Source: Leptospiraceae bacterium | GTDB taxonomy: Bacteria > Spirochaetota > Leptospiria > Leptospirales > Leptonemataceae | Length of the DNA stretch: 64,000 nt | Direction of reading: 5' to 3' | NCBI GenBank assembly: GCA_025059995.1 | Contig: JANXCF010000010.1 | Location: 1-64,000, forward strand | Shown here: positions 50,222-61,431 of the stretch, piece by piece | Numbering within the stretch: position 1 is the first letter of the stretch | Layout of the letters: each line of letters begins with the position of its first letter | The notes under the pieces: model-generated | What the model was told of the DNA's origin: nothing | What the model saw: the letters and a program-made list of their open reading frames with translations, nothing else | Database searches by the model: none | Program-made: the position numbers and the translations under genes

Positions 50222-50767
50222 CTAAATAAAATAACGTATGAAGTCGTCCATCACTTTTGAATGTTGATGGTTTATTTTTGAGAGTCCTAAAATTTCCCTT
50301 GCTCTTTCGATATAGTAGAGATAGTCGTTATGTTCACTTTGATTCAAATACAACCAGTAAGCAATTAGTAAAGTCTTGTATTTATTTGAATGAATTCGTA
50401 AAGGTTCTAAATAGCCATTTTCACTTAGAGCTTCTGCTATGTTTTTTCGTGCTGGAAAAATATGATGATAAAGTTTTTGGTTTTTCCAAATCCCTTGAGA
50501 TAACCAAACCGAATGATCCCTACAACGAAAGAGTAGTAGATAAGGGTGGTGATACAATACATTTTCCCATTTTAGATCTTCAATGATTTGAGAGATATTC
50601 AAACTACCTGTATAAACATCAAATTGATTTGTTCCAACTCTTTGAGTCAAAGAAAGAATTCGCTCAAGAGGGACTCTTTTGATGGCATAATGACGAAAAA
50701 TTTTTTTTGTAAGCTGGATATGATGTTTGATGAGATTAAACAGAATTCTTTTCTTCAATAAAGTCAT
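50222..50767 (-). CDS. Protein of unknown function (181 aa)
   Basis: I recognise no family. A basic, aromatic-rich soluble protein with a helical N-terminus (LFNLIKHHIQLTKKIFRHYA) and a region rich in His and Tyr (LYHHPYLLLFRCRDHSVWLS, then NEHNDYLYYIERA-like repeats). No signal or membrane segment. It starts divergently from the DUF4139 gene, with ATGs almost abutting if the longer start of the latter is used. Confidence 0.7.
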   Translation of the reverse strand: MTLLKKRILFNLIKHHIQLTKKIFRHYAIKRVPLERILSLTQRVGTNQFDVYTGSLNISQIIEDLKWENVLYHHPYLLLFRCRDHSVWLSQGIWKNQKLYHHIFPARKNIAEALSENGYLEPLRIHSNKYKTLLIAYWLYLNQSEHNDYLYYIERAREILGLSKINHQHSKVMDDFIRYFI

Positions 50768-50819
50768 GAGAATAAAATTTTCTTTTCATGAAGGAAAAAA
50801 AAGAATATTTAGAAGATTT

Positions 50820-52397
50820 ATGAGAATATTTAATTTTTTTCTTTTTCTTTTTTTTGTTTCTCTTGAGCTCTATTCCCAAGAAATCATTCTAAATCCTCAA
50901 CCCAAAGAAGTTGTGATGTATCCTAACTATGCTTTTATAAAACGTCAAAGCAGCATAAAAATCAAAAAAGGAAGTAACGAAATCTGGATCTCCCCGTTGC
51001 CTGAGGGTTTTCTCGACACTTCCCTTCAAGTTCACATTACAAAAGGAAATACAGAAATCCAAAACCTTCAAATTTGGAATACTTATCTTCGACCAATAAA
51101 AATCGAGAAATTAGAAAAACTAAAATCCAAACTCAACGAGCTCATTCATAAAATCCTAGAACTCGAGAACGAAAAAGAAACCTACAACATCAGTATTCAA
51201 ACTCTAAAGAAACTCACAATAGAAAAGTCCATAACTATTCAAGACATCAAATCTTTTCTACAATACCAAGAAACAAAAATTCTTGAAAACCTAAAAAAAA
51301 TCACAAACCTTCAAAATCAACTCAACGAACTCCATCAAGAAAAAAAGAAAATCGAAGAAGAAATCAACATGTGGGAAGCTCATTCCCAAAAAACAAAAAT
51401 CATACAAATCAATCTCAACTCAAACCAAGATCAAGAAATTATGTTAGAGGTGGGATATTTACAAAAAGATGCCTATTGGAAACCCAGTTATGAGATAAAA
51501 ATTGATCCATTGAAAGAAAAAGCTTTCGTAAGCATGAAGGCAGAAATTTATCAAAACACTGGTGAGGATTGGAAAGATGTTTCTTTGACTTTAAGCACCC
51601 AAGAACCACACTTTGAGTCCATAGTGCCTGAGCTTCCTCCATGGTATTTGGAGGTGCAAAAAGAAGTGATTGTTCCTTATCGAAATCAACCCGAAGCATT
51701 TTTCAGAGCTAAAAAAGAAACCCAACCAGATGAAACACCATTGGCAGAAAATCAGCAGATTACGAAAATACATTCTGACATTTCTTCTTTTGAGTTTCAA
51801 TTACCGGGGAAATACTTGATTTCTTCCAATCAAAAACCACAAAGAGTTCAAGTAATATCAAATCAAAGCCAGGCAAAAATACAGTATTTGAGTGTTCCAA
51901 AGTTGAGGGCTGGAGTTTTCGTTGTGGTAAAACTCGAAAATCCCTTTGATTTTCCTCTAAGTGTAGGTGAGGCAAATGTTTTCTTTGATGATAAATACAA
52001 AAATAAAGTTTTTTTAGAAAAACCTTACCTCCCCAAAGAAGAGATTTCTATCCCAATAGGAACTGAAGAACGAATCAAGATTGAACGAAAACTCGAACGA
52101 AAATTCACTGAAATTGTGGGAACCTTCAAAAAACAAATCCAGATCCATTATGAATTTTCTTTGAAAATCAAGAACACTCTTCCTAAAGAGGTTGAAGTCG
52201 AAATGATGGATCAAATCCCAGTTTCTAAACACGAGATGATTGAAGTTTCTCTATTAGAACCAAAACAAAATTTTTCTTCAAATAAGCAAGGTATCATCAA
52301 ATGGAAAGTTCCCCTCAAGCAAAATCAGGAAAAGAAGTTGGATTTAAAATTCTTGGTTCGTTATCCAGAAGATGTTTACGTCTATGGACTTGACTGA
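50820..52397 (+). CDS. DUF4139 (MuiA-like) secreted coiled-coil protein
   Basis: About 525 residues. Signal peptide IFNFFLFLFFVSLELYS at the N-terminus. A DUF4140-like strand region follows (EVVMYPNYAFIKRQ), then a long coiled coil (about 75-180, LKSKLNELIHKILELENEKE) and the DUF4139 part (YLQKDAYWKPSYEIKID, NTGEDWKDVSLTLSTQEPHF). These are the parts of MuiA/YCF46-like DUF4139 proteins, of unknown mechanism and linked elsewhere to mucoidy control. Longer ATGs at 50766 and 50727 are possible. Its end overlaps the next gene by 26 bases. Confidence 0.75.
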   Translation: MRIFNFFLFLFFVSLELYSQEIILNPQPKEVVMYPNYAFIKRQSSIKIKKGSNEIWISPLPEGFLDTSLQVHITKGNTEIQNLQIWNTYLRPIKIEKLEKLKSKLNELIHKILELENEKETYNISIQTLKKLTIEKSITIQDIKSFLQYQETKILENLKKITNLQNQLNELHQEKKKIEEEINMWEAHSQKTKIIQINLNSNQDQEIMLEVGYLQKDAYWKPSYEIKIDPLKEKAFVSMKAEIYQNTGEDWKDVSLTLSTQEPHFESIVPELPPWYLEVQKEVIVPYRNQPEAFFRAKKETQPDETPLAENQQITKIHSDISSFEFQLPGKYLISSNQKPQRVQVISNQSQAKIQYLSVPKLRAGVFVVVKLENPFDFPLSVGEANVFFDDKYKNKVFLEKPYLPKEEISIPIGTEERIKIERKLERKFTEIVGTFKKQIQIHYEFSLKIKNTLPKEVEVEMMDQIPVSKHEMIEVSLLEPKQNFSSNKQGIIKWKVPLKQNQEKKLDLKFLVRYPEDVYVYGLD

Positions 52398-53946
52398 AGT
52401 CCCCAATCCCAACGAAAAGACTAAGATAAAGATATTTTTTTTACCAGATCAAAAAGAAATCGAAGTCGAAGTAGGATCATCGATTTTAGAAGCATCCCTC
52501 AATTACGGTATACCTCACTATCACGTTTGTTTAGGAAATGGGGTTTGTTCCACATGTCGTGTGGAAATCTTAGAAGGTTTAGAATATCTGCCACCAAGAA
52601 ACTCCCAAGAAAAGCTCATAGCCAACCAGAAAGGATGGAAGGATAACATACGTTTAGCTTGTCAAACCATACCCAAAGGAAATATCAAAGTTCGAAGGCT
52701 CATCTATGACGAAGGAGACTCTCGACTCGCACAAAAAGAAATCACAGACTCTCAAACTAAAGAAAACCAAGAGGCTACAGTTTTAGTCATAGAAATACAA
52801 AATTTTTTCGAATTGATAGAAAAAACTCCTAATGTATTTTTTTCGCTGAGTCATTTTTTTCAACGAGTAAATAAGGTCCTTTCAAATTTTGATTCTTACA
52901 TTGAAAAACTGAATCAACATTCTTTAATGGCAATTTTTGTTCCCAAAGAAAATCAATCATTGTTGGAGCTCTCCCTCCACGCCCTCTATTGTACAAAGGA
53001 GATCTTGGAAATCTCAAAAGAATTCAACGAGACCAATAAACTTCAAGGAATCCAAGTTCAAATGGGGTTAAACCTTGGTGCTGTGATTTTCGCCAGTGCC
53101 AACTACAAAGGCAACTGGGAAAATGTGGTTTTTGGGAAAACAATTGAATGGGCAAATTACTTAACGAAAGTCAATAGAAAAGTCCAGACACATATTTTGA
53201 TTTCAGAATCTCTTTATAACATCGCAAAAGACTATATTCGTATAGGTCGAAAATTCAAAGTGGTATCAAAAGAACTTTTTCAGCCACAGCTCGCATTTGA
53301 ATTTTTAGAACTTAATCTTAACAAGGAAGAAGAACAAAAACGATACCTCCAAAAACCCATGAGCTTTTCTCTAAGGGAAATGATAGAACACAAAGACTTA
53401 TCTCAACATTCACTAAAAAATATTGTTTTTGAGGTAGATAAATCTCAATCTCAGATTGTGTTTTTACTGATGACTCCTTTAGATAGATTCGTGGGTATTG
53501 CTAAGGATTATGAAATAGAAATAAACTATCAAGTTGATATAACCCCTAAACTCAACTTACAAATCTTCATTCCCGTTAAAAATATCACCACTTTACATCA
53601 AACGAGGGATGAAACTTTTTACGCAGAAAACTTCTTTGATGCAGTAAATTTTCCTCATATTTATTTTTTTAGTAACAACATACAAGTGCTTCAAGATCGC
53701 GAATTTCGATCGTATGGGAATTTGTTTCTCAAAGGGATAACCAAGCCCATAAGCATTGATTTTCATGTAAAGCTGGTCGATAAAAACCATCAAAATCCAA
53801 AGATGGGTCTTTCTGGTTCAACGAAAGTCTTTTTGAGGGATTTTGGGATTACCTCAGAACTCAACTACGAAATGCTGATTTCTTTTGAACTCCAATTTTG
53901 GGTTAAATTTTCAATTCAAGAAATAGAAAATAAAAAAGAATTATGA
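52372..53946 (+). CDS. 2Fe-2S ferredoxin / degenerate class III cyclase / YceI fusion protein
   Basis: 524 residues, no signal peptide. (1) Ferredoxin, about 15-110: C53-x5-C59-x2-C62-x34-C97, the adrenodoxin spacing. (2) Class III adenylate/guanylate cyclase fold, about 130-325: QVQMGLNLGAVIF and NVVFGKTIEWANYL align with the usual G-D-x-V-N-x-A-x-R-L, but the Asp, Asn and Arg are Lys, Glu and Tyr, and the first metal Asp is Glu, so catalysis looks lost. (3) YceI domain, about 345-500: TRDETFYAENFFDAVNFPHI and YGNLFLKGITKPISIDFHV. YceI is normally periplasmic; here it would be cytosolic. ATG at 52372 or 52384; translationally coupled to the DUF4139 gene. Confidence 0.8.
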   Translation: MFTSMDLTEVPNPNEKTKIKIFFLPDQKEIEVEVGSSILEASLNYGIPHYHVCLGNGVCSTCRVEILEGLEYLPPRNSQEKLIANQKGWKDNIRLACQTIPKGNIKVRRLIYDEGDSRLAQKEITDSQTKENQEATVLVIEIQNFFELIEKTPNVFFSLSHFFQRVNKVLSNFDSYIEKLNQHSLMAIFVPKENQSLLELSLHALYCTKEILEISKEFNETNKLQGIQVQMGLNLGAVIFASANYKGNWENVVFGKTIEWANYLTKVNRKVQTHILISESLYNIAKDYIRIGRKFKVVSKELFQPQLAFEFLELNLNKEEEQKRYLQKPMSFSLREMIEHKDLSQHSLKNIVFEVDKSQSQIVFLLMTPLDRFVGIAKDYEIEINYQVDITPKLNLQIFIPVKNITTLHQTRDETFYAENFFDAVNFPHIYFFSNNIQVLQDREFRSYGNLFLKGITKPISIDFHVKLVDKNHQNPKMGLSGSTKVFLRDFGITSELNYEMLISFELQFWVKFSIQEIENKKEL

Positions 53947-54482: not shown

Positions 54483-55301
54483 CTACATCCTAAAACCAAA
54501 ACCAAGTTGGATGGAAACCATACTCCAAATTGGTTTTACCTCCTCCAAGAGTGGGAAATTTCGAAGAACGTAATAAAACGTTTCCAAATATTCTTGTTGG
54601 TATTTGAAGTAATAAGAAATGTCATCTGTAATCCAAATGTATTTTCTTTGTATCCAATACCAATTTTGATTTTGGTTTTTGGAAGTCATTCTTGATGAGA
54701 TTCCGTAGTGATATGACATGCCCAATTTTATTGACCACTGTTGATGACGATAGACAAGATTTCCGTTGATACGCCATAACAAACCTTCACCACTAAAAAA
54801 AGAATTTTGATGAAACGTAATGGGATCTAAAAAGCCAAGTGATTGTAACCTCCAACTTTGATAGAAAAAACGAACTTCTGGCATGTATCCAATCCCTAAT
54901 GGAAATTCAAGATAAAACCACTTTAAGATTCTTGCTTGGATGCCATATTGAAAAACGATAGCGTTGTAATCCCCTTTCCACTCAATTTGGTATTGCGTTA
55001 TGTCATAAATTTTTTGAACCCACATGAAAGGAAAATAAAACTTTCCAAAACTGATAGAAATAAAATCCCTCTCAGAAAAAAAAGAAATCAAAGAAATAAA
55101 GAGCTCCCCATTGAACTGAGAATTTTTTTGATGTTCTAACTTTGCATGAGGTTCATATAGTTCGTAAAGGCGAAAAATGGGATTTCGCATAGAATCCAAA
55201 AAAGAGGTTTTTGGGTAATAGCTTTGATGTAAGTTTACTCCCACCTCCCAAGAGATTGCCTCAAGCAATGAAATAAAAAATAAAAAAACAAAAAATCTCA
55301 C
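54483..55301 (-). CDS. Outer-membrane beta-barrel-like protein
   Basis: 272 residues. Signal peptide FFVFLFFISLLEAIS at the start; the rest is rich in alternating aromatic strands (FISISFGKFYFPFMW, LGMSYHYGISSR, YFKYQQEYLETFYYVL). It ends GFGFRM, an aromatic C-terminus as in barrels, although the last residue is Met. I recognise no family; insertion in the outer membrane is inferred. The ATG overlaps the U32 stop by four bases. Confidence 0.65.
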   Translation of the reverse strand: MRFFVFLFFISLLEAISWEVGVNLHQSYYPKTSFLDSMRNPIFRLYELYEPHAKLEHQKNSQFNGELFISLISFFSERDFISISFGKFYFPFMWVQKIYDITQYQIEWKGDYNAIVFQYGIQARILKWFYLEFPLGIGYMPEVRFFYQSWRLQSLGFLDPITFHQNSFFSGEGLLWRINGNLVYRHQQWSIKLGMSYHYGISSRMTSKNQNQNWYWIQRKYIWITDDISYYFKYQQEYLETFYYVLRNFPLLEEVKPIWSMVSIQLGFGFRM

Positions 55302-56542
55302 TTTGTGATAACCACTGGATGTTTGTATTTTCGTAAAATATCCAAAGGTTGAACGCTTTTTGGGATTTCTTTATCGAATACCAATTTTGCCATTTCTCCG
55401 TTTTTTAAAATATCCATATCCTTGTTGCTGGTTTTGATTTGTTTGATTTGAAATATTTCTTTTTCTAGTCCGTTTCGTAATATTTGGATTCGATCCTCTA
55501 ATAGGATTTTGTCTCTGGCTAATACCCAAATTCCGTCTTCTTCGACATGTTGGATTACACCGCCTAAAGAAAAGGCAGGTTCATTTCTGCTTTTACCGTT
55601 ATGTTGATAACCGTCAATAGGTTGTCCAAAATACATCCCCGTGGTAAACCCACGATTGGAAAACTGTTCTAATTCATCCCACCATTCCTCTTTCACAACA
55701 AAACTGTTTTTCTCTAGGAGATCAATGGCTTCACGATATACCTTCACAACACCTGCCAAGTAGTTTATACCCTTCATGCGCCCTTCAATCTTAAAGCTAT
55801 TTACTCCTGCTTCTGCTAACAAAGGAAGGTGTTCAATCATACACAAATCCTTTGAACTCATCACATAGGTTCCGTGATCATCCTCAAAAACTGGGAAAAA
55901 TTCATTTTCTCTTGTATCTTCTTTTAAATAGTAGACTGAGTACTTCCAGCGACAAGAATTTGTGCATTCTCCTTTGTTAGCAGATCGCCCCGTCATATAA
56001 GCAGAAAGAAAACATCGTCCCGAATACGCAATGCACATAGAACCATGAACAAAGGCTTCCAAATCTACATTTAGGCTTTTACGAAATTCCCGGATATCGT
56101 CTAGGCTTACTTCTCTTGCTAAGATGATTCTTTCTATTCCCAAATCTTCCCAGAATTTCGCAGCTTCTACGTTGGTGATATTGGCTTGAGTGCTTATGTG
56201 GATGGGAATTTCAGGAGCATATTTTTTTGCCAAACGAAAAACTCCATAATCCGAAATAATGATGGCATGAGGTTTTACATCATTCAAAAAAAGCAAATGT
56301 TCTTTTATTGCTTCTAAATCCTTGTTATGGGGATAAATGTTAATTGTGATGTAAATTTTTCTATTTTTTGATTTTACGTAGTCGATGGATTGCTTTAGGA
56401 TCTCCAAATCCATTTCTTTGATTTGGCTTCGAAGACTGAACTCAGGAAGTCCAGTATATACCGCATCAGCCCCATAATGAAGAGCGATTTGTAATTTTTC
56501 AAAATTTCCTGCAGGAGCTAATAGTTCATATTTTTTACTCAT
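55298..56542 (-). CDS. trhP: Peptidase U32 family protein (TrhP/YegQ-like)
   Basis: 414 residues with start KYELLAPAGNFEKLQIALHY and GADAVYTGLPEFSLR. The family cysteine block is HGSMCIAYSGRCFLSAYMTG followed by NKGECTNSCRW. NSFKIEGRMKGINYLAGVV is conserved. U32 proteins such as TrhP hydroxylate tRNA uridine using prephenate, with the four Cys probably holding a cluster. Function inferred from the family; it could also be another U32 subgroup. Confidence 0.85.
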   Translation of the reverse strand: MSKKYELLAPAGNFEKLQIALHYGADAVYTGLPEFSLRSQIKEMDLEILKQSIDYVKSKNRKIYITINIYPHNKDLEAIKEHLLFLNDVKPHAIIISDYGVFRLAKKYAPEIPIHISTQANITNVEAAKFWEDLGIERIILAREVSLDDIREFRKSLNVDLEAFVHGSMCIAYSGRCFLSAYMTGRSANKGECTNSCRWKYSVYYLKEDTRENEFFPVFEDDHGTYVMSSKDLCMIEHLPLLAEAGVNSFKIEGRMKGINYLAGVVKVYREAIDLLEKNSFVVKEEWWDELEQFSNRGFTTGMYFGQPIDGYQHNGKSRNEPAFSLGGVIQHVEEDGIWVLARDKILLEDRIQILRNGLEKEIFQIKQIKTSNKDMDILKNGEMAKLVFDKEIPKSVQPLDILRKYKHPVVITK

Positions 56543-60105: not shown

Positions 60106-61314
60106 TTAGACAGTTTGTTTTTTTGCACGTTTTTCGGATCGCTTCCTAAAATAGGTAACTTCTTTATCTAGTTCCTCTAAATTTTTACAACTGATTAAAC
60201 CTTGGTCGAGTTCTAAGTATTTTTTCTTGATGAGTTCAACAATATACTGCTGATCCTTCACTGGATCCATACCTACCATTTTTAAGAGATCATTTCCTGA
60301 TATACGAAAATTATAAGTAGCTTTAGGTTTGATGGGAACTTTTTCTTTTTCGACTTGGATTAATAACATATCCAACAATCGACCAATGGGATCAGTAATA
60401 GTGAGATTCGATAGTTGTCGATAAGCTGTCCATATTCTTTCAGAAAGAAGTGTAATAAGCCTTTCAGCCATGATGGGCTGTTCTATTACTAAACGATCAA
60501 AATTTTGGCGATTGATTGCCGCCATTTCGCAGTCTTCTGCTGCGATTGCGGTAGCACTACGAGGACGATTGTCCAACAAAGCCATCTCACCAAAAATGTC
60601 GCCTTCTTTCAATAGAGCTAAGATGGTTTCTTTACCTGAAATTAGTTTTGAAATTTTAACACTTCCTTTTTTGATGATATATAATTCATCCCCAGGTTCA
60701 TTTTCACAAAATATGATTTGATCTTTTTTAAAATAACGGGTTAGTTCTTTCTTAATCAGTTTCGGAGCTACAAAAGGTTTATTCATTTTTTGAAGGTAGA
60801 GCTTGGCTTGAGCTACGTTTTTGTCATTCGGGCAGTATTCAATGAACTTTTGAAAGGCATAAGCTGCATGATCAAATCGATTACTTTTAAACCAAAAAAC
60901 ACCCAGATCATATAGATGACTCGGATCTTCTTCTATTTTGAATTGTTGAGCAGAGATGTTTGTAATGGTTGCATCAAACTCTCGTAGTTTCAAAGAGAAA
61001 GATCGAATGATCTTCATTGCAAGGGGTGTGCTCTTGGTAATCAGAACACGAAATTGATCATGAGGAACCTCAATCAGTGTTGTCGGTGCTGATGTTACTG
61101 CACTTTCCATTCGTTTGTGCCCAGTCATAGCAGTTTCTACACCGAAGAAATCACCTTTTCTTAGAACCTTTTCTGGTTGAATCCCAATAGTAAAAAACTT
61201 ACCTGATAATCCTACTTGACCATCTTGAATGATATAAAAGGATCTTGGGTTTGGTTCTGTATTTTCAAAATAGATGTAGGAACCAGGTTTTAAAGTTTTG
61301 ATTGAAAAAGCCAT
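60106..61314 (-). CDS. Double cyclic-nucleotide-binding-domain protein with TPR-like linker
   Basis: About 402 residues. First cNMP-like domain (about 1-115, GSYIYFENTEPNPRSFYIIQ and GDFFGVETAMTGHKRMESAV). A central TPR-like stretch comes next (about 135-185, VFWFKSNRFDHAAYAFQKF), then a second, canonical cNMP domain (about 195-315) with GEMALLDNRPRSATAIA, which holds the cyclic-phosphate Glu and Arg. A C-terminal helical region (about 320-395) could be a winged helix. The first site has KRMES instead of PRSAT, so it probably binds no nucleotide. A cAMP effector, perhaps a regulator. ATG at 61314 follows AAAGGA. Confidence 0.8.
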   Translation of the reverse strand: MAFSIKTLKPGSYIYFENTEPNPRSFYIIQDGQVGLSGKFFTIGIQPEKVLRKGDFFGVETAMTGHKRMESAVTSAPTTLIEVPHDQFRVLITKSTPLAMKIIRSFSLKLREFDATITNISAQQFKIEEDPSHLYDLGVFWFKSNRFDHAAYAFQKFIEYCPNDKNVAQAKLYLQKMNKPFVAPKLIKKELTRYFKKDQIIFCENEPGDELYIIKKGSVKISKLISGKETILALLKEGDIFGEMALLDNRPRSATAIAAEDCEMAAINRQNFDRLVIEQPIMAERLITLLSERIWTAYRQLSNLTITDPIGRLLDMLLIQVEKEKVPIKPKATYNFRISGNDLLKMVGMDPVKDQQYIVELIKKKYLELDQGLISCKNLEELDKEVTYFRKRSEKRAKKQTV

Positions 61315-61431
61315 ACTTTCCTTTATTGATTTCGATATAACCTTTTCACAAAAAAGTAAAATTTTATAATTTATGTATAATTTTTTTATAATAAATATTG
61401 TCAAGCATAAGAAACTAAATTAAGGCTAAGT

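Follow-up and report, generated by a model that had tools for sequence, protein, structure and literature searches.

The closest described relative of the protein analysed here is CyaC of Sinorhizobium meliloti, in which a 6TM diheme-B membrane part is followed by a [2Fe-2S] domain and a cyclase, and whose activity responds to the redox state of quinones (PMC10463352). Ferredoxin cyclases have been filed under class IIIb, and a 6TM-ferredoxin-class IIIb cluster has been described (PMC4821796). A second point of comparison is YceI: proteins of this family have been found holding octaprenyl compounds or ubiquinone-8, and they are linked or, in alphaproteobacteria, fused to a cytochrome b561 (PMC9113575, PMC5350466). 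Characterised YceI proteins are either secreted standalone proteins or fused to membrane cytochrome b561.

Both kinds of domain meet in one gene of a Leptospiraceae bacterium, in the 64,000-nucleotide stretch of contig JANXCF010000010.1 that we analysed (here called the window). The gene is a single stop-free frame of 524 codons (ORF check), where ~38 in-frame stops would be expected in random sequence of the same composition, and its base composition by codon position resembles that of neighbouring genes. Its three domains follow in the order Fer2 [2Fe-2S] ferredoxin (residues ~17-113), class III cyclase fold (~130-312), and YceI (~351-515), with the following features:

50727..52397 (+): MuiA-family (DUF4139/DUF4140) gene, upstream, with 26 bases shared with the fusion gene
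52372..53946 (+): fusion gene, Fer2, degenerate class III cyclase fold, and YceI, 524 aa
52420..52710 (+): [2Fe-2S] ferredoxin domain, aa 17-113, matched by Pfam Fer2 and E. coli ferredoxin (PDB 1i7h)
52528..52662 (+): cluster ligand codons C53 (52528), C59 (52546), C62 (52555), and C97 (52660), invariant in 106/106 homologues
52711..52758 (+): helical linker, aa 114-129, joining ferredoxin and cyclase fold, modelled as a helix at 114-125
52759..53307 (+): class III cyclase fold, aa 130-312, predicted inactive
52792..52794 (+): E141, replacing metal-binding Asp 1
52906..52908 (+): K179, the substrate-specificity Lys, kept
52918..52920 (+): H183, replacing metal-binding Asp 2
53125..53160 (+): V252 (was specificity Thr), E259 (was Asn), and Y263 (was Arg), within NVVFGKTIEWANYL
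53308..53421 (+): linker, aa 313-350, low model confidence
53422..53916 (+): YceI (bacterial lipocalin) domain, aa 351-515, PF04264, with no preceding signal peptide

Alternative starts of the fusion at ATG 52384 or TTG 52390 lie closer to the start positions of its relatives. The MuiA-family gene is not kept beside the fusion in relatives and is a neighbour only, and a scan for promoters and terminators between 49.6 and 54.6 kb returned no more sites than in shuffled sequence. Elsewhere in the window, a gene ~6 kb from the fusion (60106-61404, minus strand) encodes two cyclic-nucleotide-binding domains with a CRP-like C-terminal half, and a gene close to the fusion (55298-56542, minus strand) encodes a U32-family protein whose best NCBIfam matches, both under their curated cut-offs, are to the tRNA-hydroxylation protein TrhP and the quinone-related UbiU.

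A preliminary description of this locus had called an adrenodoxin-spaced cluster site, a cyclase fold, and a YceI domain, and all three calls hold. Pfam places Fer2 at residues 26-102 (E=1e-10) and YceI (PF04264) at residues 353-506 (E=2.3e-17; 64.2 bits against a gathering score of 23.7), and the cluster spacing C53-x5-C59-x2-C62-x34-C97 is the adrenodoxin/ISC-type [2Fe-2S] pattern in a Fer2 fold. No Pfam cyclase model matched the window protein itself; phmmer aligned its residues 132-311 with CyaB of P. aeruginosa (3r5g; E=8e-4), and the homologues that align through this part are Guanylate_cyc by Pfam. In Foldseek searches, an AlphaFold model built from a 26-row alignment (mean pLDDT 79.5) matches CyaB (3r5g_A, TM 0.86 on target) and Cya2 (0.83) in its middle, and the YceI/BcnA structures 1y0g, 7bwl, and 5ixh (TM 0.79-0.85) at its C-terminus. 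The middle part is, by sequence and structure homology, a class III cyclase fold, and the protein, as placed by the tree, is a member of the Fer2-class IIIb redox cyclase family with its CyaC-like core.

All four genomes of the genus carry the three domains in this order, as does one more member of the family; the fusion-bearing relatives are SKW199, KatS3mg129, H1_Bin_059, and HKST-UBA05, and the five genomes are the only carriers among 48 genomes of the class and again among 393 genomes of the phylum. The preliminary description had allowed for a gene-joining artefact; this reading, like that of an assembly artefact, fails on the recurrence of this order in five assemblies with differing neighbourhoods. 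A single fusion event is most likely, judging from the trees, because the five fusions form one clade of ferredoxin-cyclases (98% SH-aLRT) and their YceI domains form a moderately supported group (82/78) separate from the standalone YceI proteins. Around the five fusions there is no conserved synteny or operon partner, and their neighbourhoods share only the fusion. When 85,000 species genomes were scanned with the window protein alone there was no match; the family alignment did find matches there, giving other ferredoxin-cyclases but none matching at full length, in a peptide-pattern-based scan confined to the best 80 of 193 confirmed loci, which rare distant members may escape. No plasmid record covered 80% of the query, and it is from this pattern-based scan, the phylum sample, and the plasmids that we take the YceI form to be absent outside Leptospiraceae. 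The open papers searched hold no description of a ferredoxin-cyclase-YceI protein, in keeping with the earlier impression that the YceI addition was undescribed.

The window protein resembles CyaC in having a ferredoxin directly ahead of a class IIIb cyclase, the arrangement for which quinone-linked redox control is documented in CyaC. Unlike CyaC, it is soluble, with YceI at its C-terminus and no diheme-B anchor, and has lost its cyclase catalytic residues; in place of the 6TM anchor with heme-binding His that marks CyaC proper, it has no transmembrane stretch at all (maximum mean hydropathy over 19 residues, 1.11). Its YceI domain likewise shares PF04264 and the fold with E. coli YceI (1y0g), TT1927b (1wub), and BcnA (5ixh), but stands at the C-terminus of a chain without an export signal. 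Hydropathy reveals neither an export signal nor a transmembrane stretch in any of the five fusions, as had been noted earlier of the signal in the window copy, and all five thus depart from the signal-peptide-bearing, periplasmic form of YceI; the standalone YceI proteins of the fusion-bearing genomes start with hydrophobic signal sequences. Because the fusions are without a signal or membrane stretch, their YceI domain is most likely cytosolic, and export of the YceI part was ruled out on the same hydropathy.

Catalytic and cluster sites were compared across 106 ferredoxin-cyclases. The four cluster cysteines are present in every one, the first and second catalytic Asp in 104 each, the Asn in 101 (His in 2), and the Arg in 103. 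The four YceI-fusion relatives read D-K-D-T-N-R, which is the class IIIb adenylate-cyclase residue set, and keep the full complement of catalytic residues. The window copy instead has E141, H183, V252, E259, and Y263, with K179 the sole residue of the set that is kept, so that the two Asp, the Asn, and the Arg of an active class III cyclase, with the Lys/Thr specificity pair of class IIIb, form a complete set in the four relatives and not in the window copy. Among the YceI fusions, judged by these residues, a dead cyclase is a feature of the window copy only. Because four relatives with the same domain order keep all catalytic residues, the fusion architecture is predicted to be primarily an active redox-linked adenylate cyclase, of which the window copy would be a derived pseudoenzyme. 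The earlier claim of lost catalysis therefore stands for the window copy and falls as a trait of the architecture. That claim had been argued from a G-D-x-V-N motif, whose Asp is not a metal-binding residue and where two otherwise intact relatives also have Lys; this Lys is no catalytic change. The accompanying suggestion of non-catalytic nucleotide binding is unsupported, with both metal-binding Asp, the Thr, the Asn, and the Arg gone and Lys179 alone left. Since all catalytic residues but the specificity Lys are lost, the window protein should make no cAMP. We also considered a half-active partner like the mammalian C1/C2 cyclases, which is ruled out because the window copy has lost the Asp pair of the metal half as well as the Asn/Arg half.

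Apart from a truncated row (L087), only one other full-length ferredoxin-cyclase of the 106 shows catalytic losses. This protein from Thermoanaerobaculia (L109:2510-5245) has, like the window copy, a degenerate cyclase behind its ferredoxin (residues E/T/G/A), but it reads Ser/Thr kinase, ferredoxin, degenerate cyclase, globin, with the kinase in front and the globin behind, and lies on a distant branch of the tree.

Taken as a whole, the ferredoxin-cyclase pair is a widespread core with interchangeable redox partner modules. YceI aside, the C-terminal partners named by Pfam are redox-cofactor domains: heme peroxidase (L016, L028, and the paralogue L002 of the window genome), FAD/NAD reductase (L012 by Pfam, with further cases assigned by inspecting the sequences), Rieske with or without CDGSH (L046, L050, and L058), and globin (L072, L090, and L109). 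Other members, including L035 and L067, have an N-terminal multi-pass membrane part, unnamed by Pfam, that resembles the CyaC diheme-B anchor by sequence. Partner type is strongly clustered on the ferredoxin-cyclase tree, with few changes. The paralogue L002 (G000:C2:286608-288230) shares the Fer2-cyclase core with the window protein (32% identity over residues 27-285) and is also soluble with a C-terminal third domain; it differs in that this domain is a heme peroxidase (PF00141, E=5.5e-31) in place of YceI, and in its intact catalytic residues.

Ferredoxin-cyclase-heme peroxidase fusions (L002:1429-3051, L016, L018, L019, L023, and L028), with FHD and AHT peroxidase motifs, likewise have no description in the literature searched. 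In a sister genome the peroxidase fusion (L163; G002:C1:409448-410945) is broken up into separate frames, 109 and 408 aa long, and its match contains stops, possibly through a frameshift or assembly error. Another ferredoxin-cyclase (L013, on G053:C1) has an in-frame TGA at residue 250, the codon of its fourth [2Fe-2S] Cys (RLA*QTT). SelA is encoded in the genome of L013 (E=3.5e-136) and not in that of a genus-mate; selenocysteine as a cluster ligand is conceivable, with a plain nonsense change equally likely, and folding lends no support to a selenocysteine element, the downstream hairpin being no better than shuffles (z = -0.71).

The window copy has diverged far from its sisters. Of the sites invariant in the four relatives, it keeps 32/35 in the ferredoxin (91%), 23/69 in the cyclase (33%), and 21/38 in the YceI domain (55%), the last of which has 33-36% identity to the sisters and a shortened C-terminal loop. 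On the ferredoxin-cyclase tree its terminal branch measures 2.05 changes per site, against 0.09-0.34 for the sisters, and relative to the H1 branch it is 3.3x as long for the ferredoxin, 4.4x for the cyclase, and 2.5x for YceI, all with wide intervals. For ValS, the window branch is 0.20 against 0.08-0.29 in sisters, or ~0.7x the H1 branch, and ValS and the peroxidase-fusion paralogue together rule out genome-wide fast evolution. By these comparisons, the whole protein was accelerated on the window branch while its cluster site was protected. Such acceleration, together with the five lost catalytic positions and the shortened YceI loop, is what might be seen in a gene heading to a pseudogene, its frame surviving because loss was recent or because weak selection acts on the ferredoxin only. 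Yet the cyclase part has undergone more than one amino-acid change per site, and the 524 codons remain free of stops and frameshifts; because ~6% of random substitutions in the fusion gene would yield a stop, this argues that selection held the frame open for most of the divergence, though decay may have begun recently. With the cluster ligands retained, along with 91% of the ferredoxin sites that are invariant in relatives, and with a codon-position base composition matching that of neighbouring genes, we regard a decaying gene as unlikely.

The reading that we favour, tentatively and with somewhat less than an even chance, is that these fusions are a family of YceI-carrying [2Fe-2S]-gated adenylate cyclases and that the window copy is a redox- and lipid-responsive pseudo-cyclase. 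Its starting points are read at the level of sequence: the domains and their conservation, the intact residues of the relatives and their loss in the window, the kept ferredoxin site, and the absent export signal. Lineages would add different redox modules to a core of [2Fe-2S] ferredoxin beside class IIIb cyclase, the module in these fusions being a cytosolic YceI barrel. In the relatives, the most likely ligand of this barrel would be an isoprenoid quinone or a prenyl lipid of a similar kind. The [2Fe-2S] cluster would take its state from the occupancy or redox state of the barrel and would, via the helical linker, control the activity of the cyclase dimer and cAMP; the window copy would probably act by dimerisation or protein contact. 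We infer the identity of the ligand, the flow of electrons, the regulation of cAMP, and the residual function of the window copy. By analogy, YceI most likely supplies an isoprenoid or quinone input to the cyclase, because the other partners of the core are redox modules and YceI proteins carry isoprenoids. The preliminary description had proposed a redox-sensing module binding nucleotides or isoprenoids; its isoprenoid or quinone half is plausible and is strengthened by the redox partners of the core, and its nucleotide half is unsupported. Because the window genome encodes 18 cyclase-domain matches, 11 cNMP-binding matches, and UbiA-type prenyltransferases, both cAMP signalling and prenylated compounds (quinones, heme O) are plausible in the cell. 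The proposed mechanism is weakened in that whole-protein acceleration also fits decay, and neighbourhoods that share nothing but the fusion indicate no partner for it. It also counts against this mechanism that the YceI ligands known so far were identified in proteins that are periplasmic or recombinant. Ligand binding by the window YceI domain may moreover be weakened, the domain itself having diverged.

Two other assignments of the YceI domain deserve mention. Octaprenyl phosphate or pyrophosphate, which may stem from the expression host, is bound in several YceI structures (PMC5350466, PMC9113575), and what the domain senses might be not a quinone but a polyprenyl phosphate or pyrophosphate, acting in the cytosol as isoprenoid precursor or carrier lipid, with the ferredoxin serving as a structural element or a separate redox input; however, the alternative partners of the core are redox domains and CyaC responds to quinones, and we consider a carrier-lipid sensor rather improbable. 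Alternatively, the window protein could be an electron-transfer protein, its ferredoxin exchanging electrons with a YceI-held quinone in an antioxidant role and its cyclase fold reduced to a dimerisation spacer. The ferredoxin is indeed the best-kept domain, and the BcnA-LcoA model has a YceI-bound quinone reduced by a cytochrome b561 (PMC9113575), but the fusion has no reductase domain, is cytosolic and so remote from the membrane-lipid role of BcnA, and has a diverged YceI domain, which together make electron transfer quite improbable. Under our preferred reading of a quinone- or isoprenoid-gated cyclase, the fusions could further be a second way, independent of the membrane, of sensing quinones as CyaC does, in which a cytosolic YceI barrel gates the cyclase via the [2Fe-2S] cluster and one species keeps only the redox and lipid part as a pseudo-cyclase, a proposal that we find attractive and on balance doubtful.

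Redox-controlled cyclases with this core are already known, and what appears new is the addition of YceI and the species-specific loss of catalysis. YceI, otherwise known as a secreted or membrane-tethered protein, is found here inside a predicted cytosolic signalling protein, where its ligand could be read out as cAMP, and the question of what YceI binds in the cell becomes approachable by assaying the intact relatives for cyclase activity in the ordinary way. More generally, the comparison shows the ferredoxin-cyclase core to be a general redox-signalling unit with swappable modules, of which we found the diheme-B form alone to have been studied. The pairing within one genus of a predicted active cyclase and a pseudo-cyclase lets one ask what a cyclase scaffold does without catalysis.
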